49,645 nucleotides of DNA from Acidobacteriota bacterium (GTDB lineage: Bacteria; Acidobacteriota; Thermoanaerobaculia; Gp7-AA8). Below, piece after piece: positions 6,323 through 22,134 of the stretch. The position numbers and the translations under genes were made by a program. The notes below the pieces were generated by a model. That model was not told the DNA's origin. It did no database searches and saw nothing but the letters and a program-made list of their open reading frames with translations. The stretch's first letter is position 1; every line of letters starts with the position of its first letter. The stretch spans positions 1 to 49,645 of the forward strand of contig JAJXWV010000038.1 in NCBI GenBank assembly GCA_021781455.1, in the 5' to 3' direction.

Positions 6323-6748
6323 GCCTCCATTATCGCGTTCTGTCCCGAAGAAGTGTGCAATCAACCCGGCCGCGGAGACGATCGTGGCGTACTTGACGCC
6401 GAGGTTCGATTTCGGCATCACGTCACTTTTCCGCGTCTCCGCACGCGATCGCGGATACGCTGCCGAAGCACGCCGAGGCGGTCACCACGGGGCAGGTGGC
6501 CATCGATGTTCTACCGGGCCATCGACGGCTCTCCCGAAATCGCGATTGCTGCGCCAATTAGATCTCCCGGCGAGGGAGCGGACAGTGCTCTTCGCCCGCG
6601 AAGATTCGAGACGAGCCGTAAGTGCGTCTGTAAATCCGCTTTGGTGTCAGGCCGAGCCAATGGTTTCGTCATTCGTGTTTGAATTCGACTATCGGCGTTG
6701 ATTCACGGGTACGGTCGCGGTGGGCTAACGCGCCGAGAGTACGCACGC

Positions 6749-9700
6749 ATGTCCGCAATCGGTCGATTCAAACATTCAGATTCCAGCACGAGGCGAACGG
6801 CATTTCTCGTCGGCGCGACAGCGCTGATCGTTTTGGCGCTGATGTACGTCGTCTACGCTTTTCACAGGGAGCGCGAAGCCGACGCTCTGCGCTATGCGCA
6901 CTCCGAGCAGCTCGCCGTGGCGCGCGTCGTTTCGGAACAACTCGAATTGTGCTTCGCCGAGTGGCAGCTGACGGTTCATGAGATTGCGTCCGCCGCCGAC
7001 ACCGCGACGAGTTCTCGAGAAGTCGTTCGCAATGTGGTAGCCCAACCGTCGAGCGGGTTCAAGGGCGTTGCCGTTTATGACACGGCCGGCCGAGTCGCAG
7101 CGTCTGCGGGCGCACTGCCGGCGCTTCCTGGCAAGATTGGATCTTCTCACGAGCTGACGGCAGAACTTCTGAATGGGCATCCCATCGCTGCGGCTCCAGG
7201 AGAAAGCATCGTGCGGATCGCCCTTCCGTTCGCACACGGGACTGTCGTTGCCGATGCGTCGCCCGTCAGGCGAATCGCAGCCGCAGTGGGGCACGCAATC
7301 GGGCACAGACAGTGGCACGCCAGGGTGCTGGCCGGAGACGGAACGGTTCTCTACGACTCTGCTCGATCGGCAGCAGTCCTGAGCGAAATTCGCGCCGGCG
7401 ATGCGTCCTGCGGCTCCTGCCACCCGCCTACGACCCGGGCGGACGATCGAGCGACGCGGCCGGACCGGACGGCCGTCGTCGGCCGGAGCATTGGCGAGAT
7501 CTCAGCGTCAGCAACTGCGAGCTTCGGTGGCATCGTTCTGACGACAGTCATTGATTCACCCCGGTCCGCAGCCGTGCGCGATGTCGCCAAGGACATCGGA
7601 CTGACGCTGCTGCTGTTCGCAGCTCTTTGCCTCGCCTTGTCCGTCACATGGGTCACTACATACCAGGCGTATCGGCGGCGTATACGTGCCGAGGAGGCAG
7701 CGCGATCGTGGAAAGAGCGGCATGAAATGCAGCAGGCGCTGCTCGATGCAAGGGAGCACTATCGCGCGGTCTTCGAGAGCTCGCACGACGCGATCATCAT
7801 CACGGATGCCGGCGGGCAAGTGAAGTTCGCGAATCCGAAGGCGACCGAAGTCCTCAGGCAGACGGAAAACCTGTTCGCGAACTTCCCGCGCTCCGCACAC
7901 GAGGTGATCGAGACGGCAATTCGCATCGGTGCTGCGGGTGCAGTGGCGACGTTCGATGCAGTGCTTCAGACTCCCGCTGGTGAGCGCCTGCTCTCGTTCA
8001 ATGTCGTGCCCTACATGGAAGATGGGGCTGTTGCGGGAGTGATCAGCTCCGGCCGCGATCTGACGGAACTGAAGCGTGACGAGGGGCTCATCCGCGAGTC
8101 GGAGCGCCGGCTCACGACGATGCTGAACAATACCGACACGCTTGCGGCGCTCGGCGATATCGAAGGCACGATCACCTTTTGCAGCACCGCTCTGCTGCAG
8201 CTCCTGGGCGTGACGACGGAGCAGGCGCTTGGGAGAGCGTGGCTCGATTTCGTCGCGCCCGAAGATCGCGACGCCGTGCGCGGGTCGCTCATCGAAGAGT
8301 TGCCGAGCGGCAACTATGCGACCTATGCGGAATATTCGATCGTGACGCAAAGCGGTGAGCGGCGGCTCACACGCTGGGTACGCACCCAACTTCTCGACGA
8401 CGAGGGGCGCATCGTCGGCCTTGGGGCGGTTGGCGAGGATTTGACTGCTCGCCGTTTGTCCGAGGACCGCATCAGGAAGTTGAACGACTTCTACCAGCGC
8501 ATCCTCGAGAAAACGGTTGCCGGTGTACTGGTGACAGATCGTGCGGACAATGTCTCCTACGTGAACGCGAGCTTTACCCTGGGCACTGGGGTGATCCTCG
8601 ATCGCGTTGCGCCGGCTGCGGCAGCAGCGGGGCGTATCCACGACCTCGTTCCGCCTTTCGCGGTGTGGTACGACACGGCAAAGAGCGAGCTGCGGCCGGT
8701 CTTTTTCGAGGCGGCCGCGATCACGCGTCCCGACGGTTCGAGCCGTTACCACAGCGGCTGGATGGTCCCGCTCACCGCGGATGGCGCGTTCGACGGCATG
8801 ATCTGCACGACAGAAGACTTGACCGATCGAGTCGCCGCCGAGAAGGCGCTCGGATCGCTTCAGCGACGGCACGAAGACCTCGTCGACACCGTGCCGGGGA
8901 TGGTCTGGCGGGCGGATGCGCAGACCCTCGCTGCGGAATACATCAGCGCGTATGCCGTCCAGTTTTTCGGGTATCCCCTCGCCGCATGGCGTGAGCCGGA
9001 TTTCTGGACCGATCATATCCATCCCGACGATCGCGACCGAGTCGTCAACGACGTCCTTGCGGCGGTGACGGAGGGACGCGGCCGAGCCCTCGATTACCGG
9101 TTCCTGGCCGCGGACGGCCGTGCGGTGTGGGTACGCGATGCGTTTCGCGTCGTGATGGAAGACGGGCGCCCGACCGAGCTGCAGGGCGTGATCGTCGACA
9201 TCACCGAGCGGAAGGAGATCGAGAGCGCGCTCGCCGAAAGTGAGTCGCGGTTCCGGGCTCTTTTCGAGCAGTCGGCGATCGGGATCGCCGTGCAGTGGGC
9301 CGATCGCGAGAAGCTCGAAACGAATCTCGCCTTCCGCGAAATGTTCGGCTACTCGGGAGAGGATCTCAGCACGACTAACGCCGCGCGCACCGCCGGTTCA
9401 TCGGTTCGGAGGATCGTGAACGAGATCTTCGACACCCTCTGGATCGGACTCGAGACGTCGGTGCAGAAAGAAGCTGTCTTCCGTCGCCGGGGCGGGAAGC
9501 AGATCTGGTGTCGCATCACGGCCTCGGTGATTCGTGACGAGCTCGAAGAGCCACGCATGACTGTGGCGCTGTTCGAAGACTTCACGGAGAGAAAGGTCGC
9601 CGAAGAAGCGCTCGAACAGAGCCGCGAAAAGTTTCGCGATCTCGTCGAAATCACGACGGATTGGGTGTGGGAAGTCGATCCAAACGGCGTCTATACCTAT

Positions 9701-11080
9701 GCCGGACCGCGCGTTCGCGCCATCCTCGGGTACGAGCCGGAGGAGATCATTGGACGTACGCCTTTCGATTTCATGGCGCCTGACGAGGTCGAGCGTGTTC
9801 GCGCAATCTTCGCGGCGGCGATGGCGGAGCGGAAGGCGTTCGCACTGATGGAGAACGTGAACATCCATCGCAACGGAACGCGCGTCGTGCTGGAGACGAG
9901 CGGCATGCCCGTGTTCGACGCCAATGGTTCGTTTACTGGCTATCACGGCATCGACCGCGACGTGTCGGATCGCGAGGAGCACAAGCGCGCTCACCGCCGG
10001 CTGGCGGCGGCCATCGAACAGTCGACCGAGGTCGTCATCCTCACAAATCGCGACGGAAACATCGAGTATGTGAATCCGGCGTTCGAGAAGATCTCAGGCT
10101 ATTCGCGTGACGAGGTGGTCGGGTTGACGCCGCGGATTCTGAAGAGTGGCGTGCAGAGCGATGACTTCTACGCGTCGCTGTGGGCGCGGTTGCTCAGCGG
10201 AGGTTCCTGGAGCGGTCGATTTGTCAACCGGCGCAAGGATGGAACGACTTTCGAGGTCGAGGCGAGCATCTCACCGATTCTTTCGGATGATGGCCAGATC
10301 AGCGGGTTCATTGGTCTGCAGCGCGATATGACCGAGCACATCACGTTGCTCGAACGGCTCCATCGAGCCGAGGAGATGGATCGCGTGGGACGGCTGATCA
10401 GTGGCGTCGCTCACGAAGTGCGTAACCCGCTGAACGGGATCCAGGCAGCCTTGGCAGCTCTCGAGCTGGACGTCGCCTCAACCGATGAAAACCAGTCGCT
10501 GTTCCGGGCGATGCGATCACAGGTGACGCGGCTGTCCCAGCTGATGCGCGAGCTGCTCGAGTTCAGTAAGCCGATCGAGCCTTCGCGTATGGAGAGGTGC
10601 TCCGTGGATGCGCTCTGCAGCGAAGCGATTGCACTGTGGCGGTCCGGCCATCCCGATCAGCCGCAGGAGCGCGTGATCTTTGAGCCGCTTGGAACGACGC
10701 TGATGGTGGAAGTCGATCGCATGCGCCTGCACCAGGTCGTGATTAATCTCCTTGACAACGCTCACCAGCATTCACCGATCATCGAAGATGTCGTTCTACG
10801 CATCTCTCGCGACAACGGCTATTGCCGGATCGAGGTCGTCGATCGTGGCGCCGGCGTGAAGCCGGAGCACGTCTCACACGTATTCGATCCATTTTTTACG
10901 ACCCGCCGCGGAGGAACCGGTCTCGGATTGACGCTCGTCAAGAACATCGTCGAACAGCACGGCGGCCGTGTCATGCTCATAAACAACGATCCTGGTCCGG
11001 GTTGTAACGCCCAAATCATTCTGAAGGCCTCCGTGGCTGTTGAACAGCTTGAAGATGCAATCGAAACTGCTTCTCGTTGA
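6749..11080 (+). CDS. Multi-PAS membrane sensor histidine kinase with periplasmic CxxCH motif
   Basis: A 1443-residue sensor kinase. Membrane segment 1 is at about 17-38 and segment 2 at about 283-306, enclosing a periplasmic domain of about 240 residues. That domain contains CGSCH (Cys221, Cys224, His225), the covalent haem c attachment motif. The cytoplasmic part holds seven consecutive PAS-like domains of about 120 residues each (roughly 331-1200; for example ALFEQSAIGIAVQWADREK and AAIEQSTEVVILTNRDGN). A HisKA domain follows with phospho-accepting His1222 in GVAHEVRNPLNGI, then an ATPase domain with VVINLLDNAHQHS and GTGLGLTLVKNIVEQHGG. It overlaps the next gene, an NtrC-type regulator, by 26 bp, so the pair is almost certainly co-translated partners. 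Haem attachment is inferred from the motif alone. The ATG at 6749 is chosen because it directly precedes membrane segment 1. Confidence 0.92.
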   Translation: MSAIGRFKHSDSSTRRTAFLVGATALIVLALMYVVYAFHREREADALRYAHSEQLAVARVVSEQLELCFAEWQLTVHEIASAADTATSSREVVRNVVAQPSSGFKGVAVYDTAGRVAASAGALPALPGKIGSSHELTAELLNGHPIAAAPGESIVRIALPFAHGTVVADASPVRRIAAAVGHAIGHRQWHARVLAGDGTVLYDSARSAAVLSEIRAGDASCGSCHPPTTRADDRATRPDRTAVVGRSIGEISASATASFGGIVLTTVIDSPRSAAVRDVAKDIGLTLLLFAALCLALSVTWVTTYQAYRRRIRAEEAARSWKERHEMQQALLDAREHYRAVFESSHDAIIITDAGGQVKFANPKATEVLRQTENLFANFPRSAHEVIETAIRIGAAGAVATFDAVLQTPAGERLLSFNVVPYMEDGAVAGVISSGRDLTELKRDEGLIRESERRLTTMLNNTDTLAALGDIEGTITFCSTALLQLLGVTTEQALGRAWLDFVAPEDRDAVRGSLIEELPSGNYATYAEYSIVTQSGERRLTRWVRTQLLDDEGRIVGLGAVGEDLTARRLSEDRIRKLNDFYQRILEKTVAGVLVTDRADNVSYVNASFTLGTGVILDRVAPAAAAAGRIHDLVPPFAVWYDTAKSELRPVFFEAAAITRPDGSSRYHSGWMVPLTADGAFDGMICTTEDLTDRVAAEKALGSLQRRHEDLVDTVPGMVWRADAQTLAAEYISAYAVQFFGYPLAAWREPDFWTDHIHPDDRDRVVNDVLAAVTEGRGRALDYRFLAADGRAVWVRDAFRVVMEDGRPTELQGVIVDITERKEIESALAESESRFRALFEQSAIGIAVQWADREKLETNLAFREMFGYSGEDLSTTNAARTAGSSVRRIVNEIFDTLWIGLETSVQKEAVFRRRGGKQIWCRITASVIRDELEEPRMTVALFEDFTERKVAEEALEQSREKFRDLVEITTDWVWEVDPNGVYTYAGPRVRAILGYEPEEIIGRTPFDFMAPDEVERVRAIFAAAMAERKAFALMENVNIHRNGTRVVLETSGMPVFDANGSFTGYHGIDRDVSDREEHKRAHRRLAAAIEQSTEVVILTNRDGNIEYVNPAFEKISGYSRDEVVGLTPRILKSGVQSDDFYASLWARLLSGGSWSGRFVNRRKDGTTFEVEASISPILSDDGQISGFIGLQRDMTEHITLLERLHRAEEMDRVGRLISGVAHEVRNPLNGIQAALAALELDVASTDENQSLFRAMRSQVTRLSQLMRELLEFSKPIEPSRMERCSVDALCSEAIALWRSGHPDQPQERVIFEPLGTTLMVEVDRMRLHQVVINLLDNAHQHSPIIEDVVLRISRDNGYCRIEVVDRGAGVKPEHVSHVFDPFFTTRRGGTGLGLTLVKNIVEQHGGRVMLINNDPGPGCNAQIILKASVAVEQLEDAIETASR

Positions 11081-12365
11081 CGATGAATGGGTTTTCTCGT
11101 CCTCGACGGCGCGCTACCTGTCGCGGAAGGGATTTTTCGTTCGTGAGGCGGGCACCCTGGCCGCAGCACGGACGGCCGTGGCTGGGGATTCGTTCAATGC
11201 CGTTCTGCTCGATCTCGGTCTTCCGGATGGCAACGGCATCGAGTTTCTGGACGAGCTGCGCGCGGCCTACCCCGCGCTCGCCATCATTGTGATCACGGGT
11301 TCGGGCGATATCCCTGTTGCCGTCGAGGCAATGAAGCGGGGAGCCGACCATTTCCTCAGCAAGCCGATCGACCTGACGGAGCTGGAGCTCTTCCTCAATA
11401 AATCCCTCGAAGTTGGACAGCTGCGCCGTAAGCATGCGGCCCATCAGCGGCTGTCGAAGAGGAATGAGCCGTTCTTCGGAACGAGTGAAGCGGCACGACA
11501 CGCTCAGGAGCTGGCACTGCTCGCCGCCGAGAGCGACGCCGTGGTGCTGATCACCGGTGAGACCGGGACCGGCAAAGGAGTGATCGCCAACTGGATCCAT
11601 CACCGCAGCTACAGGCGCACGATGTCGTTTGTCGAAGTCAACTGCTCGATGTTGCGCGGCGAACTGCTGGCGAGCGAACTGTTCGGCCATGCGCGGGGCG
11701 CCTTCACGTCGGCGAGCGAGAATCGGAGCGGCCTGATCGACACGGCCGATGGCGGAACACTCTTTCTGGACGAAATCGGCGACATGGATGCGTCGATCCA
11801 GGTGCAATTCCTCAAAGTCATCGAGGAGAAACGGTTCCGCCGGCTTGGCGAGACGAGCGTCAGGCACAGCGACTTCCGACTGATCTGTGCGACCAACCAC
11901 GATCTCGCATCCGATGTCGCCCGGGGCGCTTTCCGCGCGGATCTGTTCTATCGGCTGAACGTCCTTCCGATTCACCTCCCGCCGCTGCGCGAGATACCCG
12001 ACGATTTCCGTTCGCTGGTTGCCTATCTGCTCGCAGGGTTCGGCACCACAGTCGAGCAGTTCGAGCGCGGGGCGATGGAAATACTGCAGGCTTACGAGTG
12101 GCCGGGAAATACGCGCGAGTTGAAGAACGTGCTCGAACGCGCACTGCTTCTCGCCAGGGGTCAGCCGATCGGCAGGAGCCATCTGCGAGGCATCGAGCAC
12201 GGCTCGCCGAGGCAGGACTCGGCGAACGGGCGATCAATCGCCGCGGATGTACTGGCTGTGCTTCAGCGCTGCGGAGGGGACAAGCGACTCGCGGCGCGAG
12301 AGCTTGGTATCTCGCGGGCGACGCTGTACCGGCGGTTGCAGTCGATCGAGGGCACGGAGCAGTAA
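11055..12365 (+). CDS. NtrC-family sigma-54-dependent response regulator
   Basis: A 436-residue regulator with three domains: a receiver (acid pocket Asp9/Asp10, phospho-acceptor Asp53 in LLDLGLPDGNG, Lys in FLSKPID), a sigma-54-activating AAA+ domain (Walker A GETGTGKG, Walker B GGTLFLDEIGDM, sensor region LFYRLNVLPIHLPPLR), and a C-terminal Fis-type helix-turn-helix (LAARELGISRATLYRRLQ). The sigma-54 contact loop reads GAFTSA instead of the usual GAFTGA; the essential Phe-Thr is kept. The ATG at 11055 lies inside the 3' end of the kinase gene. The likely targets are the palindromes and sigma-54 promoter just downstream, which would make this the activator of the chemosensory operon. Confidence 0.93.
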   Translation: MQSKLLLVDDEWVFSSSTARYLSRKGFFVREAGTLAAARTAVAGDSFNAVLLDLGLPDGNGIEFLDELRAAYPALAIIVITGSGDIPVAVEAMKRGADHFLSKPIDLTELELFLNKSLEVGQLRRKHAAHQRLSKRNEPFFGTSEAARHAQELALLAAESDAVVLITGETGTGKGVIANWIHHRSYRRTMSFVEVNCSMLRGELLASELFGHARGAFTSASENRSGLIDTADGGTLFLDEIGDMDASIQVQFLKVIEEKRFRRLGETSVRHSDFRLICATNHDLASDVARGAFRADLFYRLNVLPIHLPPLREIPDDFRSLVAYLLAGFGTTVEQFERGAMEILQAYEWPGNTRELKNVLERALLLARGQPIGRSHLRGIEHGSPRQDSANGRSIAADVLAVLQRCGGDKRLAARELGISRATLYRRLQSIEGTEQ

Positions 12366-12434
12366 ACAAACTGCAAACTGCTTTTCCCCGACGGCGACCA
12401 CGCGTCCACGAGAGGGGTTTTCGTGTTGCGCAAT

Positions 12435-12502
12435 TCTCACGTGAGACGGCGTGAGACGCGAAATTGTGGACTTTCTCACGATGCGTGAGACGCCGCATGA
12501 GA
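12435..12502. promoter_or_regulatory. Candidate activator-binding palindromes (upstream activating sequence)
   Basis: Two palindromes share the half-site TCTCACG. TCTCACGTGAGA at 12435-12446 is perfect. TCTCACG-ATG-CGTGAGA at 12474-12490 has 7-bp perfect arms. Extra half-sites GCGTGAGACG (12449) and CATGAGA (12496) lie between and after them. They sit about 85-140 bp before the sigma-54-like promoter and directly after the NtrC-type gene, the usual position for enhancer sites of this regulator class. Binding is inferred. Confidence 0.6.
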
Positions 12503-12574
12503 ATCGCAGTTCGCGATCCGGCCAGCAATCACATAAGTCACATAAAGCCAGAGACTTAGCTGCTGGCTCTTCCG

Positions 12575-12590
12575 TGGCAGCAAGGTTGCT
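12575..12590 (+). promoter_or_regulatory. Candidate sigma-54 promoter (-24/-12)
   Basis: TGGCAGCAAGGTTGCT matches the sigma-54 consensus TGGCAC-N5-TTGCW with one deviation in the -24 box. GG and GC are separated by exactly 10 bases. The start of transcription would fall near 12600, only a few bases before the ATG at 12607, so the leader would be very short and has no clear ribosome-binding site. It drives toward the receiver-EAL-Che genes. Confidence 0.6.
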
Positions 12591-12606
12591 CTACGGCGGC
12601 CACGAC

Positions 12607-13026
12607 ATGACGTCCGCGTCTCCACCCAATCACCTGCCGATCTCTCCTTCCGAGCCTTCGCGCGAGCGAATTCTTCTCGTCGATGACGACGAAGAAACCC
12701 TCACGATATTCACTGCTTTGATCCGCCGCCTGCAATGTCATGTCGACGCAGTGACCAGCATCGAGGCAGCCGAGAGGCTCCTCGATGCCGGTCGCTATGA
12801 CGTGGTGATCACCGATCTGCGCCTTACCGGCGTGCTGGGCGAGGAAGGGCTGGAAATCATGCAATACGTCAAGGAAAAGAACCCGACGACGCAGGTCATC
12901 CTCATCACCGGATTCGGCAATCCGCAGTTGATGACGCGCGCGTACCGGCTGGGCGCGGCCTGCTATTTCGAGAAGCCGGTCGATCCCGCTCGTCTGGTCG
13001 GAGCAATCCAGCAACTCAAGCCATGA
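12607..13026 (+). CDS. Single-domain response regulator (receiver)
   Basis: A 139-residue protein with an N-terminal extension of about 20 residues rich in Ser/Pro and then one complete receiver domain: acidic pocket Asp26-Asp28 in ILLVDDDEE, phospho-acceptor Asp70 in VVITDLRLTG, Thr/Ser switch in VILITGFG and Lys in CYFEKPVD. There is no output domain, so it probably works by protein contact, either with the EAL protein encoded next or as a second CheY-like target or phosphate sink of CheA. Its stop overlaps the next start (ATGA at 13023-13026), which implies translational coupling. It is the first gene after the sigma-54-like promoter. Confidence 0.85.
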   Translation: MTSASPPNHLPISPSEPSRERILLVDDDEETLTIFTALIRRLQCHVDAVTSIEAAERLLDAGRYDVVITDLRLTGVLGEEGLEIMQYVKEKNPTTQVILITGFGNPQLMTRAYRLGAACYFEKPVDPARLVGAIQQLKP

Positions 13027-13811
13027 AGAGCCAAACCGAGCAGAACGAGCTTGCCGATCTGGTCCGCCGTGGATTTCACTCCGTGGTGTTCCAGCCGATC
13101 CGTCGCCTCGGTGACGGGTCGGTCTACGGATTCGAAGCGCTGATGCGCGGACCGGAAGGGACCGTGCTGGAGAACCCGGCGCCGATCTTTCGCAGCGATG
13201 CCATCGACCGTACGCTCCTGCACGAAATCGATTCCGCATGCATTCTTTCGGCAGTCCGTCTGGGCCGGGTGCTCGAAGGCGTGCTGTTCATCAACGTGCA
13301 TGGCGAGACGCTTCTGCACCACGCCAGCCGGGGCGACGACATCATGCGCATGCTCCCGGTCGTCGATGTCGATCCGCAGCGTGTGGTACTCGAGATTTCG
13401 GAGACGACGGACAAGTCTCACGTTCACGCGATCAAGCGCGCTCTTCAGCCGTTGCGCGACCTCGGCATGCGGCTGGCGCTCGACGATGTCGGTGTCTTCA
13501 ACTCCTGGCTCCAGCACATGGTCACCCTGGAAGCCGAGTACATGAAAGTGGACCGGCAGTTCATCACACACATCGATAGCTCGCCTTCGAAAAAGCGCCT
13601 GTTGCGCGGCTTCGTCGCCTTCGCGCGGGAGACAGGCGCGGAAATCATCGTGGAAGGCGTGGAGTCCGAGGCCGAAAGCGCCGCCGTGGCGAAGTGTGGA
13701 GTCGATCTGGCGCAGGGGTACCTGCTCGGCCGACCCGCGCCTGCGCAAACGTGGGTGGACTGCTCGGCCGATGCCCCGGACCAGACGCGCGTCAGCGCGG
13801 TATTCGAGTGA
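13023..13811 (+). CDS. EAL-domain protein, probable cyclic-di-GMP phosphodiesterase
   Basis: A 262-residue stand-alone EAL domain with no sensor or membrane part. The signature Glu38-Ala-Leu lies in VYGFEALMRGP. Further metal- and ligand-binding positions are present: Asn in LFINVHGETL, Glu in VVLEISET, the Asp pair in LALDDVGVF (usually DDFG), Lys and Asp in YMKVDRQFI, Glu in IIVEGVES and the terminal QGYLLGRP. With these kept the protein is likely active in breaking down cyclic-di-GMP, although the DDFGTG loop is altered to DDVGVF and loop 6 should be checked. It is coupled to the receiver gene before it by a 4-bp overlap, so its activity may be set by that receiver. Confidence 0.87.
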   Translation: MKSQTEQNELADLVRRGFHSVVFQPIRRLGDGSVYGFEALMRGPEGTVLENPAPIFRSDAIDRTLLHEIDSACILSAVRLGRVLEGVLFINVHGETLLHHASRGDDIMRMLPVVDVDPQRVVLEISETTDKSHVHAIKRALQPLRDLGMRLALDDVGVFNSWLQHMVTLEAEYMKVDRQFITHIDSSPSKKRLLRGFVAFARETGAEIIVEGVESEAESAAVAKCGVDLAQGYLLGRPAPAQTWVDCSADAPDQTRVSAVFE

Positions 13812-13818
13812 GAACGAA

Positions 13819-14253
13819 ATGACAAGAGAGCCGCGAAAAATCCTGATCGTCGAGGACTCCGAGTTGCTTCACCGCATGTACGAAGTGGTCTTCCGCCTGC
13901 AACGAAAGAACGGGTGTCTGCTCCTGCACGCCCTCAACGGGCGCGAAGCCCTGCAGCAACTTTCCCAGCACCCCGACACCGACCTGATCCTGCTCGACAT
14001 CAACATGCCGGTGATGAGCGGTCTGGAGTTTCTGGCGCACTGCAAACGCGAGCAGGTCTTCCATGAGATTCCGGTCATCATCGTGAGCACGGAAGGAAAG
14101 CACGAAGACACGGTTCGCGCACTGCGTGGTGGCGCTCGCGGATACGTCACGAAACCTTTCAAGCCGCAGGATCTGCACACTCTGATCGAGCGCATCTTCG
14201 CCGCGTCAAAAGCGCAGCCGGGTGAACTGGTCAAGAGCGCGAGCACTGTCTGA
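13819..14253 (+). CDS. cheY: CheY-like response regulator
   Basis: A 144-residue single receiver domain. It has Glu12-Asp13 in ILIVEDSE, phospho-acceptor Asp60 in LILLDINMPVMSG, Ser in VIIVSTEG and Lys in YVTKPFKP. It starts 8 bp after the EAL gene and its stop overlaps the cheA start (TGATG at 14251-14255). Position directly before cheA makes it the prime phosphotransfer target. With no flagellar switch gene nearby, its output partner is unknown and may be the EAL protein or another regulator. Confidence 0.88.
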   Translation: MTREPRKILIVEDSELLHRMYEVVFRLQRKNGCLLLHALNGREALQQLSQHPDTDLILLDINMPVMSGLEFLAHCKREQVFHEIPVIIVSTEGKHEDTVRALRGGARGYVTKPFKPQDLHTLIERIFAASKAQPGELVKSASTV

Positions 14254-15827
14254 TGGTCAACGCACCGTACCTCGGTCTGATGGCCGACTTCTTCCTGGAG
14301 GCCAACGAGCGCTGTGACCGCCTCGAAGAATGCCTGCTCGCTGCTCTCGAACAGACCGGCGATGCGTGCAACGAGCTGCTGAATGCCGCCAAACGCGAGC
14401 TCCACACGCTCAAGGGCAATGCCGGCATGATGGGCTTTCGCGAGTTGCAGGAGGCTGCTCATCGACTCGAGGACCGCGTTGCTGCGGTTGATCGTGACGA
14501 CCCGTGCATCGAGAAACTTCTTCTGGACCTGGACGGCTTTCGGGCCATGGTGCGCGATGCCAATACTGACGAGTCCAAAGATGAATCTCTCTCCTCCGGT
14601 GTCTCCACCACCCCGGCACCACATGATGATGCGCTGCATCTCCGCAGCGTTCGGGTGCCATTCGTTGCTCTCGACGAGCTCGTCGATCTTCTTGCGGAGA
14701 TGGTCATCTTTCGCAATCGCGTCGACGATGCCCTGACCCGCAGCCACTCCGGAGCCGGGGCCTGGGACGACGTCCAGTCGGCTCATGAGGCGCTGGGCAA
14801 GACCCTGACATTCATTCAGGACCGCATCATGTCCATCCGGATGGTCCCGCTTCAGACGCTGTTCGGTCATCTGCGGAGGATCGTCCATGACGAAAGTCTG
14901 GCCTCGGGGAAGCGTGTCGTGTTCGAGGTCGTCGGCGGGGAAACGCCGATGGACAAGGCTCTTCTCGAATGCGCAAGCGAGGCTCTCGGTCACATCGTCC
15001 GGAACGCTGTGGTTCACGGCATCGAAACGCCGGATGGACGGGCGGCTGGCGGCAAACAAAGTGTAGGAACCGTAAGGCTGACCGCAGTTGCGCACGCCGA
15101 TGAAGTGGTCGTCGAGGTGGCCGATGACGGCGCGGGCATCGATCGCGCGTCGATCATTCGTGCGGCCGAAGCGCGCGGCATCGATCCCGACAGCGTCGAT
15201 GATCCTTACGAGCTGCTCTTCCGGGCCGGGTTTTCGACCCGGGTCGAGACGGACGTGAGTGCCGGCCGCGGGGTGGGTCTGTCTGCCGCGGTCGACGCCG
15301 TGCGCAGCCTGGGCGGGCACGTCTCGGTCGCTTCCAACGCGGGCATCGGAACTACGTTTCGGATGCGGCTGCCCTTGACGGTCTCCATCACGCGCGCGCT
15401 CCTGGTGCGTGTGGACGGCGAGGATTACGCCGTTCCTCTGGCTGCCATCAGCGAGAGCGTCATCTTCAGGAGCGGCGACCGGCACGTCATCAACCAATCG
15501 TCGGTTTTCGAATGGCGCGGTGCCGTGCTGCCGCTGCTCGATCTCGGCTGTGCGATGGCGACTGCCACCACTCCGCGCGACCACGGCTACATCGTGGTGA
15601 TCGAAGCGGAAAACAAACATCGCGGCCTGATGGTCGACGATCTTACCGGGATGCGCGAGATCGTGGTCAAGGGTCTCGGCGAAATCGGCGGCCTGCCGCG
15701 CGGCATCTCCGGGGCGACCATCCTTGGCGACGGCCGTGTCCTTCTCATTCTCGATGCCAGGTCGCTCGTTGCCATGACGCCGGCCAATGAAGCTCGCCTC
15801 GAACGGCGAGCGCCAGGAGGTAATTGA
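14253..15827 (+). CDS. cheA: Chemotaxis histidine kinase CheA
   Basis: A 524-residue CheA, shorter than the enterobacterial form because the CheY-binding P2 domain is missing. The P1 domain carries the phosphorylated His51 in ELHTLKGNAGMMGF. After a short linker comes the dimerisation domain with IMSIRMVPLQTLFGHL. The ATPase domain has the N-box LGHIVRNAVVHGIE, the G1 box VADDGAGID and the G2 region GRGVGLSAAVDAV. The CheW-like P5 domain begins about at residue 375. Loss of P2 is common in non-flagellar chemosensory systems. It overlaps cheY and cheW by one base each side, so all three should be made in step. Confidence 0.95.
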   Translation: MVNAPYLGLMADFFLEANERCDRLEECLLAALEQTGDACNELLNAAKRELHTLKGNAGMMGFRELQEAAHRLEDRVAAVDRDDPCIEKLLLDLDGFRAMVRDANTDESKDESLSSGVSTTPAPHDDALHLRSVRVPFVALDELVDLLAEMVIFRNRVDDALTRSHSGAGAWDDVQSAHEALGKTLTFIQDRIMSIRMVPLQTLFGHLRRIVHDESLASGKRVVFEVVGGETPMDKALLECASEALGHIVRNAVVHGIETPDGRAAGGKQSVGTVRLTAVAHADEVVVEVADDGAGIDRASIIRAAEARGIDPDSVDDPYELLFRAGFSTRVETDVSAGRGVGLSAAVDAVRSLGGHVSVASNAGIGTTFRMRLPLTVSITRALLVRVDGEDYAVPLAAISESVIFRSGDRHVINQSSVFEWRGAVLPLLDLGCAMATATTPRDHGYIVVIEAENKHRGLMVDDLTGMREIVVKGLGEIGGLPRGISGATILGDGRVLLILDARSLVAMTPANEARLERRAPGGN

Positions 15828-16453
15828 TGTCCGATGAACCTGCGGATCCGGGCACGGCGCTGTTGCCGCCGTCCGGTCTCGCCGAAGACATTCTCGGTTT
15901 CCGCGCCGATTCCACAGCGCCCGACCAGCTTTACACGTTTGCCGACTCCGTCAACGTCCATCAACAGGGGCTTGTCGAACGACCGAAGGCGATCGAGACG
16001 TGGGTGACGTTTTCGCTCATGGGTGAGACCTTCGCTTTACCGGTAACGCACGTCTACGAGATCCTCCGCGTGTCCGGCATCACCCGCGTTCCGCACGCGC
16101 CCGCGATGGTGCGGGGCGTGACGAACATGCGCGGGCGCGTGCTGCCGGTGATCGATCTGCGCGTGCGCCTGGGACTGAATGCGGCAGAGCCCTCTCAGCA
16201 GAGTCGCATTCTCGTGGTGACCTCCCGTGGCCGTTCGCTCGGACTACTCGTCGACGCCGTTCAGCAGGTCGAGCGGATCCAGCGCGATACGGTCCAACCT
16301 CCACCCGTCGACATCATGACGGCGCAATCGGACTACATCGTCGGCGTCTGCGATCTCGGAGCGCGGCTGGTCATTCTCCTCGACGTCGATCGCATCCTCA
16401 TTCTTCGTGAAATCGAGCGCGACGCTCTCCAGCGCGCGCCGCAAGGAGCGTAG
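15827..16453 (+). CDS. cheW: CheW coupling protein
   Basis: A 208-residue protein linking CheA to the chemoreceptor. The first ~55 residues are a low-conservation extension; the CheW fold follows, with [20 protein letters not shown], the receptor/kinase-binding turn [18 protein letters not shown] and the end [16 protein letters not shown]. The ATG at 15827 is supported by a perfect AGGAGG six bases upstream; an in-frame TTG one codon earlier is not preferred. It overlaps the cheA stop by one base and ends three bases before the receptor gene. Confidence 0.93.
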
Positions 16454-16455
16454 CC

Positions 16456-18342
16456 ATGAAGTGGTTTCTCAATCTCAAAGTCGGCGCAAAGCTCACCCTG
16501 GCGTTCCTGCTGATGGCGGCCGTCGTGTCCGGCATCGGAGTTCGCGGCATCCAGAACATGCAGAAGCTCAATCAACAACTCGACAGCGTGTTCCGGAACG
16601 AGCTCACACCGCTGGAGTCCCTCAGCAGTGCCGTGATCGCGTACGAGCATCATCGCCTCACCCGCATGGAAATGACTGCCGCAGTTGGCACGCCGAGATA
16701 CGAAGAATTCCTGGCGAAATCGGATGACGATGTGAGGATCATCGACGCGGCATTCGCGAATTACCGCAAAGCGACCCTCGCCGCAGAAGAAGAGAAGCTC
16801 GCCAGCGCTGTCGAAGCGGATCTCCTGGTTGAGAAAGCAAACCGCGTGCGCCTTCGGCAGATTCTGGAGAACAGCAGCATCACTCCAGATGAGCGACAGA
16901 AAGCAGGCTTCGCCTTTCTTTTCGACCCTGCCGTGATTGCCACCGGTCACCGGGTACGCGACAACTCCGACGAACTCCTTAGGGTTCACAAAAAAGACGC
17001 GGAGGCTGCGCAAAAGGATGGCGAGAGGCTGTACGCAGCTCAGCGCTCGATGTTCATGGGCGCGATCATCGCTGCGGTGATCCTTGCGCTTGGCATTGGT
17101 TTCTTCCTGGCTCGCATCATCACCGTGCCACTGCGCGCGTTTGGGGTGGCCATCGACAATGTGGCCCGCGGAAATCTCGTCACGCCGGAACTCGACACAG
17201 AACGCAAGGACGAGCTCGGCGACCTCGCACGCACGCTGCTGGCCAGCGTCGAGACGCAGCGCCACGTGATCGGCGAGATCAAGGAGTCGTCCTCGCTGGT
17301 CGCTTCTTCGGCCGATGAGATCTCCGCCTCTGCCGTGCAGATCACAAAGGGCGCAGAAAATCAGTCCTCTGCCAGCGATGAAACTTCTTCGACGATGGTG
17401 GAGATGGCCAGTCAGATCGACCAGGTCTCGCGCTCTGCTCAGAATCTGGCCACCAACGTGGACGAGACATCCTCATCCATCCAGGAGATGGGCGCTTCGA
17501 TCGAACAAGTGGCGAAGAATGCCGAAAACCTGTTGACGTCTGTCGAAGAGACCAGCACCACCATCGAGCAGATGGCGGCCTCGATCCGTTCGGTGGCGAA
17601 CAAAGTCAAGGTGGTCGATGAGGCTTCGAAGGAAGCGTCGACGATCGCCGAATCGGGTGCCGGCGAGCTCTCCACCGTCATCAACGGCATCGGCGCGAGC
17701 AGCAAAGACATCGGCAAGATCGTCAAGATCATCGAAGAGATCGCCGATCAGACGAACCTTCTCGCGCTCAATGCGGCCATCGAAGCGGCGCGCGCCGGCG
17801 ATGCCGGGAAAGGTTTCGCCGTCGTCGCCGAGGAAGTCAAGCGGCTGGCCGAGCGGTCGATGAACTCCACTCGCGAGATCTCCACATTCGTCGAGCGCGT
17901 GCAGAAGGACGTCGGCCAGGCGGTGGACCTCTCCGGCAACGTGCTCCGTTCCATTCGCGACTCGGTGGGAAAGAGCTCTTCGCTCGTCGGTGAGGTTTAC
18001 ACCGCCGCGCAGGAGCAGAGCAACGGAGCCGGTCAGATCCTCAAGACCGCCACCAACATGCAGAACGTCACGCGCCAGCTGGCCACTGCGGCGAAACAGC
18101 AGGCCATCGCCGCCCGCGAAATCATGTCGTCGGTGGAGACCATGAACCGCATGACCCAGCAGGTCGCCAACGCCACTTCGGAACAGAAGAATGGCGGCGA
18201 CATGGTCGTCAAAGCGGTCGAGCAGATCGCTCAGGTGGCCCAGCAGAACGTCGCCTCGACCGAGCAGCTCTCCAAGGCCACAGCCGGACTGGCCCGTGAG
18301 GCCGAGCGGATGCGCGGGCTCTCACAGCAGTTCGTCTTTTGA
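16456..18342 (+). CDS. Methyl-accepting chemoreceptor
   Basis: A 628-residue transmembrane receptor. Membrane segment 1 is at about residues 12-30 ([17 protein letters not shown]), followed by a helical periplasmic domain of about 165 residues that looks like a four-helix bundle. Segment 2 is at about 196-216 ([18 protein letters not shown]). A HAMP domain follows, then a long coiled-coil signalling domain with the conserved hairpin tip [20 protein letters not shown] continuing into [20 protein letters not shown]. There are many Glu-Glu/Gln pairs suitable for CheR/CheB modification. The C-terminus (RGLSQQFVF) lacks the NWETF-type tether for CheR. AAGGAG lies before the ATG. The ligand cannot be read from the sequence. 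Confidence 0.93.
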
Positions 18343-18356
18343 TCAGGTGATCAGCC

Positions 18357-20255
18357 ATGCTTGCGACAGTCCAATCGATGGAGGCCCGCGGTCGCGACGG
18401 AGATCTCAAGAAATTCGTCGATGCGCGGGATCTTCCCCCCGATCTCCAGCGGGAGACGCTGGAACAACTCTTTCGTAGCGCCAGCGGTGATCTTCGCCAG
18501 CGTGCCCTGCGCGCGGGCGCCATCGTACTGCCCGACGATGTTCTGATCTCGTATCTCCGCAACGGAACGGATGACATCGTCCGCAATTCCGGTTTGGAGA
18601 TGCTCAAGCTCCGCGGTCGGCGTGCGTTCTCGACGGCTGTGGCGCTGCTCGATGACAGCGACGGCGATGTCGTTCTGCAGGCCGTGCTGGTGCTCGACAG
18701 CTTGCGCGATCCGCGGGCGTGGCCTCACCTCAGACCCCTTCTCGAGCACGGTGATCCAAACGTGGTTCAGGCGACGATCATGGCCGCCGGTCACCTGGCC
18801 GGCGTCGCGGCGTTGCGCGACCTCGTGCCGTTCCTGTCCGCCGACCCATGGTTGCAGACGGCCGCCGCGCAGGCGCTCGGCGACCTCCGCTCGACCACTG
18901 CCGTACCGCATCTGGTTCCTTTGCTCTCCGATCCATTCATGGAGCAGTTCGCGGCCGAAGCGCTGGCACGGATCGGCGATGTGACTGCATTCCGGGCATT
19001 GGCCAAGCACTGGCTCGTAGCGGAACACGAAACGGAGCCGCGGTTGTATCTGGGGTTGCTCGCCGGAATGCTGGCGCAGTTCGAACGGCCGCCTCGTGAC
19101 GCGAAGCTTCTCACCGCCGTCGAGCGGTATCTCAGCTCGACCGATCAAGCCGCCGCGGCCGCCGCCGCCTGGTGTGTGCTGGCACTGGGACCATCAGCGG
19201 GCGACCCGATCGTGCTCGACCTCATCGCCGCGACAGTCGAAGAGCATCAATTCCCAGCCTCGATCACAGGCCGCAGCGACCTGGTCGCCAACCTCATCCG
19301 CCGCGATCCTCCCCTCCGCGACTGGGGTTGGGAGCTCCTGAACCGGTTTCCAGCCGCCCTGCCTCCGGAAGCGGTGGTACGCGCGCTCGGGGAATTTCCG
19401 CCGACTGGCGCGGGCACTGTAGGGGCGTACCTGGCGCATTCGAGCAGTGCGCTTCTCGTCGAGCCGTTACTGGCCGAATGGACAGGCCGGAGCGAAGAGC
19501 GCGAACAACTCACCGTTGCGGTGCGCCGCCATGCCCGCGCGATCGAGGAACGCGTGTCCACCTTGCCAATGACTGCCGCCGACCGCCTGGCGCTGCTCGA
19601 AGCGATCGGCGCTCCTCCTGCGGCGGTCAGCGCAGAGATCGTGCGGCTGGGGGAAGCGCAGCGATGGGAAGCCGTTGCGGCGATTCGGAGCCGGGCCGTG
19701 GTGCAGAGGCTGCCGTGGAGCGAGTGGATGGCGTCTGGGGATCGAGAAGCTGCCGGTCGCGCACTCGCCGACGCGCTGACACGGACGAATTGCCGCAAGT
19801 TGCTGCCACTCCTGCGTGCCGAGCTCGCCGCGCGTCCGCAACGCGAGCTCGTCGAGGTCGTGGGCGATCTTCGCGACGCCGACAGTGTGCCGATCCTGAC
19901 GGCACTTCTCCAGCACAGCGCTTCTCTGCTTCGCGCAGCGATCTTCGACAGTCTCGGCCGTATCGGCAGCACCAATGCGCGAACAGTCCTGCGTTCGTAC
20001 TGCGTTTCCGACGGTCCGGATGGCGGGCAGGCGTGTCGCGCTCTCGCCATGTGCGCGACGGAAAGCGACTGTGCCATCCTCCGCGCCGGTGCCGACTCTC
20101 CGGACCTCTCCGTGCGGCTTGCCGTGGTAGCACCGTTGATTTCCTTTGCGAACGAAGAAAATCTACGCGTCCTTCGCCGCTTGCTGTTCGATCCATCAAC
20201 CGCTGTCGCGCAGAAGGCGCAGTACTCACTCGATCTGGCGTGGAGCGCCGTTTGA
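18357..20255 (+). CDS. HEAT-repeat protein of the chemosensory operon
   Basis: A 632-residue protein composed almost entirely of HEAT/PBS-lyase-like helical repeats, for example DDIVRNSGLEMLKLRGRRA, GDVVLQAVLVLDSLRDPRA, PNVVQATIMAAGHLAG and WLQTAAAQALGDLRSTTAV in the first half and SLLRAAIFDSLGRIGSTNA near the end. It lacks a signal peptide and a catalytic motif, so it is probably a cytoplasmic scaffold. It sits between the receptor and cheR genes, 14 bp after the former and touching the latter, so it belongs to the operon. I recall HEAT-like proteins in some non-flagellar myxobacterial Che clusters, which makes a role in receptor or methyltransferase assembly plausible. Confidence 0.88.
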   Translation: MLATVQSMEARGRDGDLKKFVDARDLPPDLQRETLEQLFRSASGDLRQRALRAGAIVLPDDVLISYLRNGTDDIVRNSGLEMLKLRGRRAFSTAVALLDDSDGDVVLQAVLVLDSLRDPRAWPHLRPLLEHGDPNVVQATIMAAGHLAGVAALRDLVPFLSADPWLQTAAAQALGDLRSTTAVPHLVPLLSDPFMEQFAAEALARIGDVTAFRALAKHWLVAEHETEPRLYLGLLAGMLAQFERPPRDAKLLTAVERYLSSTDQAAAAAAAWCVLALGPSAGDPIVLDLIAATVEEHQFPASITGRSDLVANLIRRDPPLRDWGWELLNRFPAALPPEAVVRALGEFPPTGAGTVGAYLAHSSSALLVEPLLAEWTGRSEEREQLTVAVRRHARAIEERVSTLPMTAADRLALLEAIGAPPAAVSAEIVRLGEAQRWEAVAAIRSRAVVQRLPWSEWMASGDREAAGRALADALTRTNCRKLLPLLRAELAARPQRELVEVVGDLRDADSVPILTALLQHSASLLRAAIFDSLGRIGSTNARTVLRSYCVSDGPDGGQACRALAMCATESDCAILRAGADSPDLSVRLAVVAPLISFANEENLRVLRRLLFDPSTAVAQKAQYSLDLAWSAV

Positions 20256-20272
20256 CCTCTACTCAACTCTGT

Positions 20273-21094
20273 ATGTCCGATGAGGAGCTGGCGCTGCTCA
20301 ATGATCTCCTCTCGTCGGAGCTTGGAATCATCTTTGCGGAATCGAAGCGCGAGATTCTCGAGTCACGGCTGAGGCCGCGACTGGCCGCGCTCCGGCTGCG
20401 CAGTTTTCGCGACTATTACCTGCAGCTCCAGTATGCGAATGGCGACGGGGCGTCCGAGCGGCGGGAGCTGGCCCGCGCCGTCACAAACAACGAAACCTAT
20501 TTCTTTCGCGAGTCGTACCAGTTCGAGGCGTTGTTCGAGCAGGCCATCGGAGGCATCAAGGACCACTCCGCACAGCCGGGCGTCATTCGGATGATCAGCG
20601 CCGGCTGTTCCTCCGGCGAGGAGCCATACTCGCTGAACATTTTCGCGCGCGAGAATGCCTTCAGAGCCTTCGGCTGGAGCGTGGAGATCGACGCCTTTGA
20701 CGTCAGTGACGCACGCGTGCGTGCGGCATGCGCAGGGTCGTATACCGAGACTTCGCTCCGAGGAGTTTCCCCCGAACAGGTGCAGCGCTACTTCCACAGC
20801 GGAGACGGCCGATATCACCTGAAGCCGATGTATCGTGCCGGCGTTCGCATCCGCCTGGGGAACATTCTCGACAGAGCCTCTTATGGCCTGCCGGCCATGG
20901 CCGACGTCATCTTCTGCCGGAACGTGCTGATCTACTTTTCCGAGACCTCGCTGCGCCGTGCCATCGCCAATTTTGCGGAAGCCCTTCGACCCGGAGGTCT
21001 GTTGTTTCTCGGCCACTCCGAATCCATCATCGGACTCTGTCCTGACCTCGAGCCGGTGCGCTTAGGCAGCTGCATCGCCTATCGGCGCGTGTGA
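20273..21094 (+). CDS. cheR: Chemoreceptor methyltransferase CheR
   Basis: A 273-residue S-adenosylmethionine-dependent methyltransferase that methylates receptor Glu residues. The N-terminal helical domain (LLSSELGIIFAESKREILE to LARAVTNNETYFFRESYQF) carries the conserved Asn-Asn-Glu-Thr-Phe-Phe-Arg signature. The SAM-binding loop is MISAGCSSGEEPYSLNI, and DVIFCRNVLIYFSET and LLFLGHSESI follow as in CheR. The ATG at 20273 is used; a TTG at 20252 overlapping the previous stop is an alternative and would add seven residues. The 3' end overlaps the cheB GTG start by four bases. There is no tetratricopeptide extension. Confidence 0.93.
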   Translation: MSDEELALLNDLLSSELGIIFAESKREILESRLRPRLAALRLRSFRDYYLQLQYANGDGASERRELARAVTNNETYFFRESYQFEALFEQAIGGIKDHSAQPGVIRMISAGCSSGEEPYSLNIFARENAFRAFGWSVEIDAFDVSDARVRAACAGSYTETSLRGVSPEQVQRYFHSGDGRYHLKPMYRAGVRIRLGNILDRASYGLPAMADVIFCRNVLIYFSETSLRRAIANFAEALRPGGLLFLGHSESIIGLCPDLEPVRLGSCIAYRRV

Positions 21095-22134
21095 GGGATG
21101 TGAAGACTCGCTCCTCCATCCGCCTCGCAGTGGTCGACGACTCGGTCTTCGTTCGGAAGGCGATCTGCCGTCTTTTTCAGGGCGACGAGCGCTTCACAGT
21201 GGTCGGAGCGGCGTCCTGTGGCGAGGAGTTGCTGGAGCATCTCGAAGCGTGGAATCCGACAGCCGTCACGCTCGATCTTTCCATGCCGGGCATGGGCGGC
21301 CTGGCCACCCTCGACGAGCTCCTGCGACGGCGACGGCTACCCGTCATCATCCTTTCGGCGCACACGAGCCAGGAAGCGCCGCTCACCATCGAGGCGTTGA
21401 GCCGCGGTGCCGTGGACTTCGTCGATAAGCAGCAGTTTTCGCTCGTTGATTTCGACGCTCTCCGCTCCGTTCTAACAGAGAAGTTGCTCACGATTGCAGG
21501 AACCCGGCGCTCGGCTGAACCGCCGCTGCTCGTGCCTGTTGTGCCGTCTCCCATGCCGGCAACCGGCAGTCACGACATCCTTCTCATTGGAGCCTCGACG
21601 GGCGGCCCGCCGGCGATCGAACAGGTTCTGCGGGACCTCGGGACTCCGTCTTTTCCGATCGCAATCGTGCAGCACATGCCGCCGGGATTCACGGCCGCAT
21701 TCGCGGATCGTCTCAACGCTCATTTGCCGATGGACGTGTGCGAGGCCTCGCACGGAGCGCGGTTCGTCCCCGGTGTCGCATACATCGCCCCCGCCGGAAT
21801 GCACCTCAAGCTGAAGAAAGACGGTGAGGAAATGTTCACGACGTTGAGCCGCTATCCCGATTCCACCACCCATTGCCCCTCGGTCAACGTGTTGTTCGAA
21901 TCAGCAGAGGCCTTCGGCGAGCGCTGCGTGGCGGTGCTCCTGACGGGTATGGGCGACGACGGCGCCAACGGTCTGCTGAAACTTGCAAGCGCCGGCGCGC
22001 TGACGGTCGTCCAGGACGAGGCGACGTCAGTGGTCTACGGCATGCCCCGAGCCGCCGTCGCCCTCAACGCCGCCCGCGAGCAGTTGCCGCTGCCCAGCAT
22101 CGGAAAACGCGTCATCGAGCTGCTACGGTTCTGA
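21091..22134 (+). CDS. cheB: Chemoreceptor methylesterase CheB
   Basis: A 347-residue protein with a receiver domain followed by the methylesterase. The receiver has Asp16-Asp17 in LAVVDDSVF and phospho-acceptor Asp62 in VTLDLSMPGMGG. The esterase triad is visible as Ser169 in LIGASTGGP, His195 in AIVQHMPPGF and Asp290 in LTGMGDDGANG. The start is GTG at 21091, overlapping the cheR stop. It removes methyl groups added by CheR, so the operon can adapt its signal. CheD, CheC and CheZ are absent from the window. Confidence 0.94.
   Translation: MRDVKTRSSIRLAVVDDSVFVRKAICRLFQGDERFTVVGAASCGEELLEHLEAWNPTAVTLDLSMPGMGGLATLDELLRRRRLPVIILSAHTSQEAPLTIEALSRGAVDFVDKQQFSLVDFDALRSVLTEKLLTIAGTRRSAEPPLLVPVVPSPMPATGSHDILLIGASTGGPPAIEQVLRDLGTPSFPIAIVQHMPPGFTAAFADRLNAHLPMDVCEASHGARFVPGVAYIAPAGMHLKLKKDGEEMFTTLSRYPDSTTHCPSVNVLFESAEAFGERCVAVLLTGMGDDGANGLLKLASAGALTVVQDEATSVVYGMPRAAVALNAAREQLPLPSIGKRVIELLRF

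Follow-up and report, generated by a model that had tools for sequence, protein, structure and literature searches.

The locus raised the question of whether a single haem c attachment motif in the periplasmic part of a long sensor kinase marks a real haem-based sensor, and whether this sensor controls the chemosensory genes that lie downstream. The window, i.e. the whole stretch of 49,645 nucleotides that was analysed, carries the gene of a histidine kinase on the forward strand (6749..11080). Translation from the ATG at 6749 runs to a stop whose last base is 11080 and yields a protein of 1,443 amino acids; the frame is open further back to a TTG at 6698. The sequence-only reading had described a sensor kinase with seven cytoplasmic PAS domains. 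The kinase assignment was confirmed, with both HisKA (residues 1214-1275) and HATPase_c (residues 1323-1426) exceeding the Pfam cut-off. A whole-protein scan likewise gave seven PAS stretches (7751..10363, forward strand). When these were cut out singly, six matched and the third (about residues 590-725) had no match at an E-value of 0.001, which makes the third a degenerate PAS domain beside six clear ones. Two transmembrane helices were located by eye in the sequence, with no topology program, at about residues 17-38 and 282-305. These helices place the CGSCH motif (residues 221-225; 7409..7423, forward strand) in the periplasm, as had been proposed, and the AlphaFold2 model, with its long helices, agrees with this placement. 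The motif is the sole CxxCH of the protein, and the composition of the protein itself leads to an expectation of about 0.0003 CxxCH per 250 residues.

The gene of an NtrC-type response regulator (11055..12365, forward strand) begins before the kinase gene has ended. The ATG at 11055 is an inferred start in an open reading frame that opens at 11040. The product combines REC, sigma-54 AAA+ and Fis-type HTH domains, so that a kinase core stands beside a REC-sigma54 AAA+-HTH regulator, the gene arrangement of NtrC-type two-component systems. From these systems the pair in the window differs by its predicted haem c double Cache input, its long PAS array and a regulator variant that reads GAFTSA (seen by eye in the sequence), where such proteins usually read GAFTGA. 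The literature search found no paper containing both GAFTSA and GAFTGA. Among the loci of the relatives described below, an NtrC-type regulator likewise adjoins the kinase in L026, L035 and L038. In L026 (757-2658) an in-frame TAG splits the haem-motif kinase into two parts, and the regulator comes after them; this kinase gene is a pseudogene or reflects a sequence error.

The gap behind the regulator gene (12366-12606) contains candidate regulator-binding sites, namely the perfect palindrome TCTCACGTGAGA at 12435-12446, an extra half-site CGTGAGA at 12450-12456 and the perfect 17-bp palindrome TCTCACGATGCGTGAGA at 12474-12490, which occurs once in the genome of 4.88 Mb. The half-site is present in five copies in this gap. 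Some 7-mer reached that number in 6 of 2,000 shuffles. Of 810 stretches taken from the window, however, 38 contain some 7-mer as often, and these are mostly GC-rich. Downstream of the palindromes and half-sites lies a sigma-54-like -24/-12 site, TGGCAG-N5-TTGCT, with one mismatch (12575..12590, forward strand). It is the sole site with at most one mismatch in the window, for which 1.17 are expected by chance. A promoter at this site would give a leader of just about 6 nt. The genome also has a gene for RpoN. The putative target operon follows at 12607..22134 on the forward strand, with mostly overlapping or abutting genes for REC, EAL, REC, CheA, CheW, MCP, a HEAT protein, CheR and CheB. Two REC genes thus flank the EAL gene, and the HEAT-repeat gene sits between those for MCP and CheR. 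For the core of the operon, a counterpart was found in another family of the class (genome G022), not in the own family. In G022, relatives of CheA, CheW, the HEAT protein, CheR and CheB are clustered with the MCP gene on the other strand, and no match to the kinase, the regulator or EAL was obtained in the stretch compared. Because of this, the kinase appears to be a module added beside the chemosensory operon.

The kinase might bind haem c and nevertheless act elsewhere together with its regulator, the chemosensory operon being a mere neighbour. The G022 cluster would agree with this, as would the kinase-regulator pairs of L035, which do not adjoin che genes, and the sigma-54-like site, which is within the chance number for the window. 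However, it is between the regulator gene and the operon that the palindromes and half-sites occur, ahead of the sigma-54-like site, and the genome has no second copy of the 17-bp palindrome. We regard this alternative as unlikely. Control of the chemosensory genes, as suggested in the sequence-only reading, is plausible from the gene order: the adjacent NtrC-type regulator, the palindromes and the sigma-54-like site before the che operon are circumstantial evidence for it, and the control itself stays putative.

How well the haem motif is conserved had to be judged from remote relatives. No close homologue of the window domain was found in the genus, the family or the class (148 class genomes, none with a relative), in plasmid records or in the class of the nearest relative, and NCBIfam has no family for it. 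Remote relatives occur elsewhere in the phylum, and the best three share CxxCH at the same place. In a profile search for further relatives over 396 genomes of the phylum, strong matches spanning the motif position retained CxxCH. A contig scan was run with the patterns HPEM[VE][GL]RN and [AV]W[VML]M[DAN][DKN]DG[TN], both of them free of the haem motif. It returned relatives from Acidobacteria, Ignavibacteria, Bacteroidetes and Nitrospirae, all of which kept CxxCH (12/12). As three Nitrospirae sequences are 89-97% identical and some genomes had already appeared in the earlier searches, the number of independent relatives is nearer ten than 12. CxxCH is also kept in four relatives from the whole-genome searches, beyond these 12. 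Cys221, Cys224 and His225, whose invariance had been proposed as a check, are therefore preserved in 16 of 16 relatives found, all of them remote (14-23% identity, none above 23%), and CxxCH falls in the same alignment column in the window domain and in all relatives. In eight other dCache kinases matching the profile, CxxCH was absent from the first 400 residues. Very long sensor kinases recur in the group of haem-motif dCache kinases, with 1,875 aa for L029:75-5699 and about 1,625 aa for L013:1-2643 (open frame).

The periplasmic region between the two transmembrane helices was modelled as a two-module Cache fold, which the sequence-only reading had not named. The double Cache domain extends over about residues 39-281 (6863..7591, forward strand), with borders set by eye from a weak dCache_1 match and structural matches. 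Compared with the PDB, the AlphaFold2 model of the window domain mostly matched double Cache ligand-binding domains over residues 49-271, with Z up to 12.8. The pLDDT was a middling 67, and residues 212-247 around the motif were under 50; the model of the domain of the relative L027 reached 84. The dCache_1 family (PF02743) scored 23.6 bits for the window domain against a cut-off of 45, and 46.5 bits, just past this cut-off, for L027, where the match covers both modules. All 13 members of the group matched dCache_1, and PF11845 was not among the families listed for them. In the model, CxxCH belongs to the second, membrane-proximal Cache module, ahead of its last two long strands, and stands in the column of this module that the relatives share. 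In a profile alignment to Tlp1 (4wy9), the CxxCH segment lies opposite a four-residue gap. Searched against PDB sequences, a first profile gave no relative and a larger one gave plain dCache domains.

An assignment to the DUF3365/sCache_heme family was considered and rejected, as the window protein gave no PF11845 match up to an E-value of 1 and has a double rather than a single Cache domain. The PF11845 profile had no match in the own genome, where the controls were silent too, so that this result does not show absence. No sCache_heme entry was named among the structural matches listed, which is no evidence against kinship. According to the sCache_heme preprint, the CxxCH insertion of that family sits between strands 3 and 4, and its place may be comparable to that of CxxCH in the window domain.

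For haem attachment, the genome encodes CcmE and four CcmF/CcmC-type proteins, with CcmE and two of the CcmF/CcmC-type proteins near each other on contig C27. This set fits haem c maturation by System I. A Met stands 12 residues ahead of the first Cys in all 12 aligned relatives (13 residues in L038). The window domain has Ala209 in this place and its periplasmic part is free of Met, for which reason its distal haem site is probably open or otherwise ligated. If the Met of the relatives is the distal ligand, the site of the window domain would be open or would use a His or Cys68. The His of the HPEM pattern was dropped as a general haem ligand, since the Nitrospirota members carry Gln there. 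About 4.4 kb upstream of the haem-motif kinase of L027, a fragment with four CxxCH (L027:2-598) apparently encodes a multihaem cytochrome.

Since the site is shared by distant relatives from four phyla, the window domain is probably a real haem-based sensor of redox state or gas. By analogy to described sensors, redox or NO is favoured as the signal, with no choice between the two. The haem might also be a permanent structural or electron-transfer group, with a ligand of the distal Cache module as the signal. Ligand binding is usual for double Cache domains, and the haem motif is absent from the first module. Stand-alone sCache_heme proteins, moreover, appear to be redox-related (PMC12889525). 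On the other hand, sCache_heme domains fused to signalling modules act as NO sensors (PMC12889525), and the loss of Met suggests a changeable distal site in the window domain. Such a role of the haem appears unlikely to us, and we prefer a haem that is itself the sensing group.

Whether the window domain belongs with the haem-motif relatives was also judged with the motif left out. In a maximum likelihood tree calculated with CxxCH masked, the window domain fell into a set of 11 rows, the other ten of which are haem-motif domains (support 96/97), and one branch (support only 74/78) had all haem-motif rows and the window domain on the same side. The exact placement is insecure because of a long end branch, an odd composition and the lack of any relative above 23% identity. 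The CxxCH-masked profile did not separate the window domain, which scored no better than plain dCache kinases. Twelve columns are invariant across the 12 aligned relatives, and the window domain retains six of them (Gly114, Pro160, Gly198, Cys221, Cys224 and His225), having lost Trp, Met, Asn, Phe, Lys and Trp. That the attachment motif is whole while half of the other invariant residues have drifted argues for selection on the motif. A remnant or coincidental CxxCH in a diverged ordinary dCache domain, with no haem and a small molecule as the signal, would account for the six lost residues, Met included, and for the failure of the masked profile, yet it is improbable given the intact motif in the column shared by all relatives, the grouping in the masked tree and the very low chance expectation.

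We give a probability of about 60% to the whole explanation, in which a haem c double-Cache kinase acts through an NtrC-type regulator on a sigma-54 promoter of the EAL/chemosensory operon. The residues lost from the window domain, the score of the masked profile, the weak model around the motif, the chance-level sigma-54-like site with its short leader and the GAFTSA variant weigh against it. The periplasmic double Cache domain of the membrane kinase would carry one covalent haem c, bound by Cys221, Cys224 and His225 in its membrane-proximal module. If the redox state of the haem changed, or if it bound a small gas, for example NO, its distal coordination would be altered. This would move the second transmembrane helix, and the signal would travel along the PAS array to set the level of autophosphorylation. 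From the kinase, the phosphoryl group would be handed to the adjacent regulator as the predicted partner, which would then activate the sigma-54 promoter ahead of the EAL/chemosensory operon as the putative target.

The explicit naming of covalent haem in a Cache domain dates only from 2026 and concerned single Cache domains with NO-sensing properties (PMC12889525). A signalling sCache_heme member without an axial Cys showed tight NO binding (PMC12889525), and of the haems of GSU0935 one has Met60 and the other a water (PMC8396549). The literature searched contained DcrA, GSU0303, GSU0582, GSU0935 and the DUF3365 family as periplasmic haem c sensors. No description of haem c in a double Cache domain was found in this literature, which omits most subscription papers. 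The sCache_heme domains (DUF3365/Tll0287-like, PF11845; GSU0582, GSU0935; PMC12889525, PMC8396549) resemble the window domain as extracytoplasmic Cache-type sensors with one CxxCH in kinases or chemoreceptors. They are single Cache domains with a Pfam profile of their own, whereas the window domain is a double Cache domain without a PF11845 match and lacks their known axial Met at a testable place. With dCache_1 domains (PF02743) such as those of PctA/PctC, Mlp24 and Tlp1, it shares the fold, the long N-terminal helix and the two modules between two transmembrane helices. Those domains bind small molecules and are devoid of CxxCH, in contrast to the window domain with its motif in the second module. 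DcrA of Desulfovibrio vulgaris is a signalling protein with haem c in the periplasm and a PAS in the cytoplasm (PMC8396549), an arrangement also predicted for the window kinase. It is a chemoreceptor and not a kinase, and the two are likened by description.

A bolder reading, to which we give somewhat less than even odds, is that haem c sensors include a second class, so far undescribed, that uses the double Cache fold and occurs in Acidobacteriota, Ignavibacteriota, Bacteroidota and Nitrospirota. Within it, the kinase of the window would represent a branch that has lost the Met and gained an open distal site for a gas, and would gate a c-di-GMP/chemosensory operon via a sigma-54 regulator. 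If true, the chemosensory system would gain an input that can be tested, and with a double-Cache version in four phyla, extracytoplasmic haem sensing would extend beyond the sCache_heme family.
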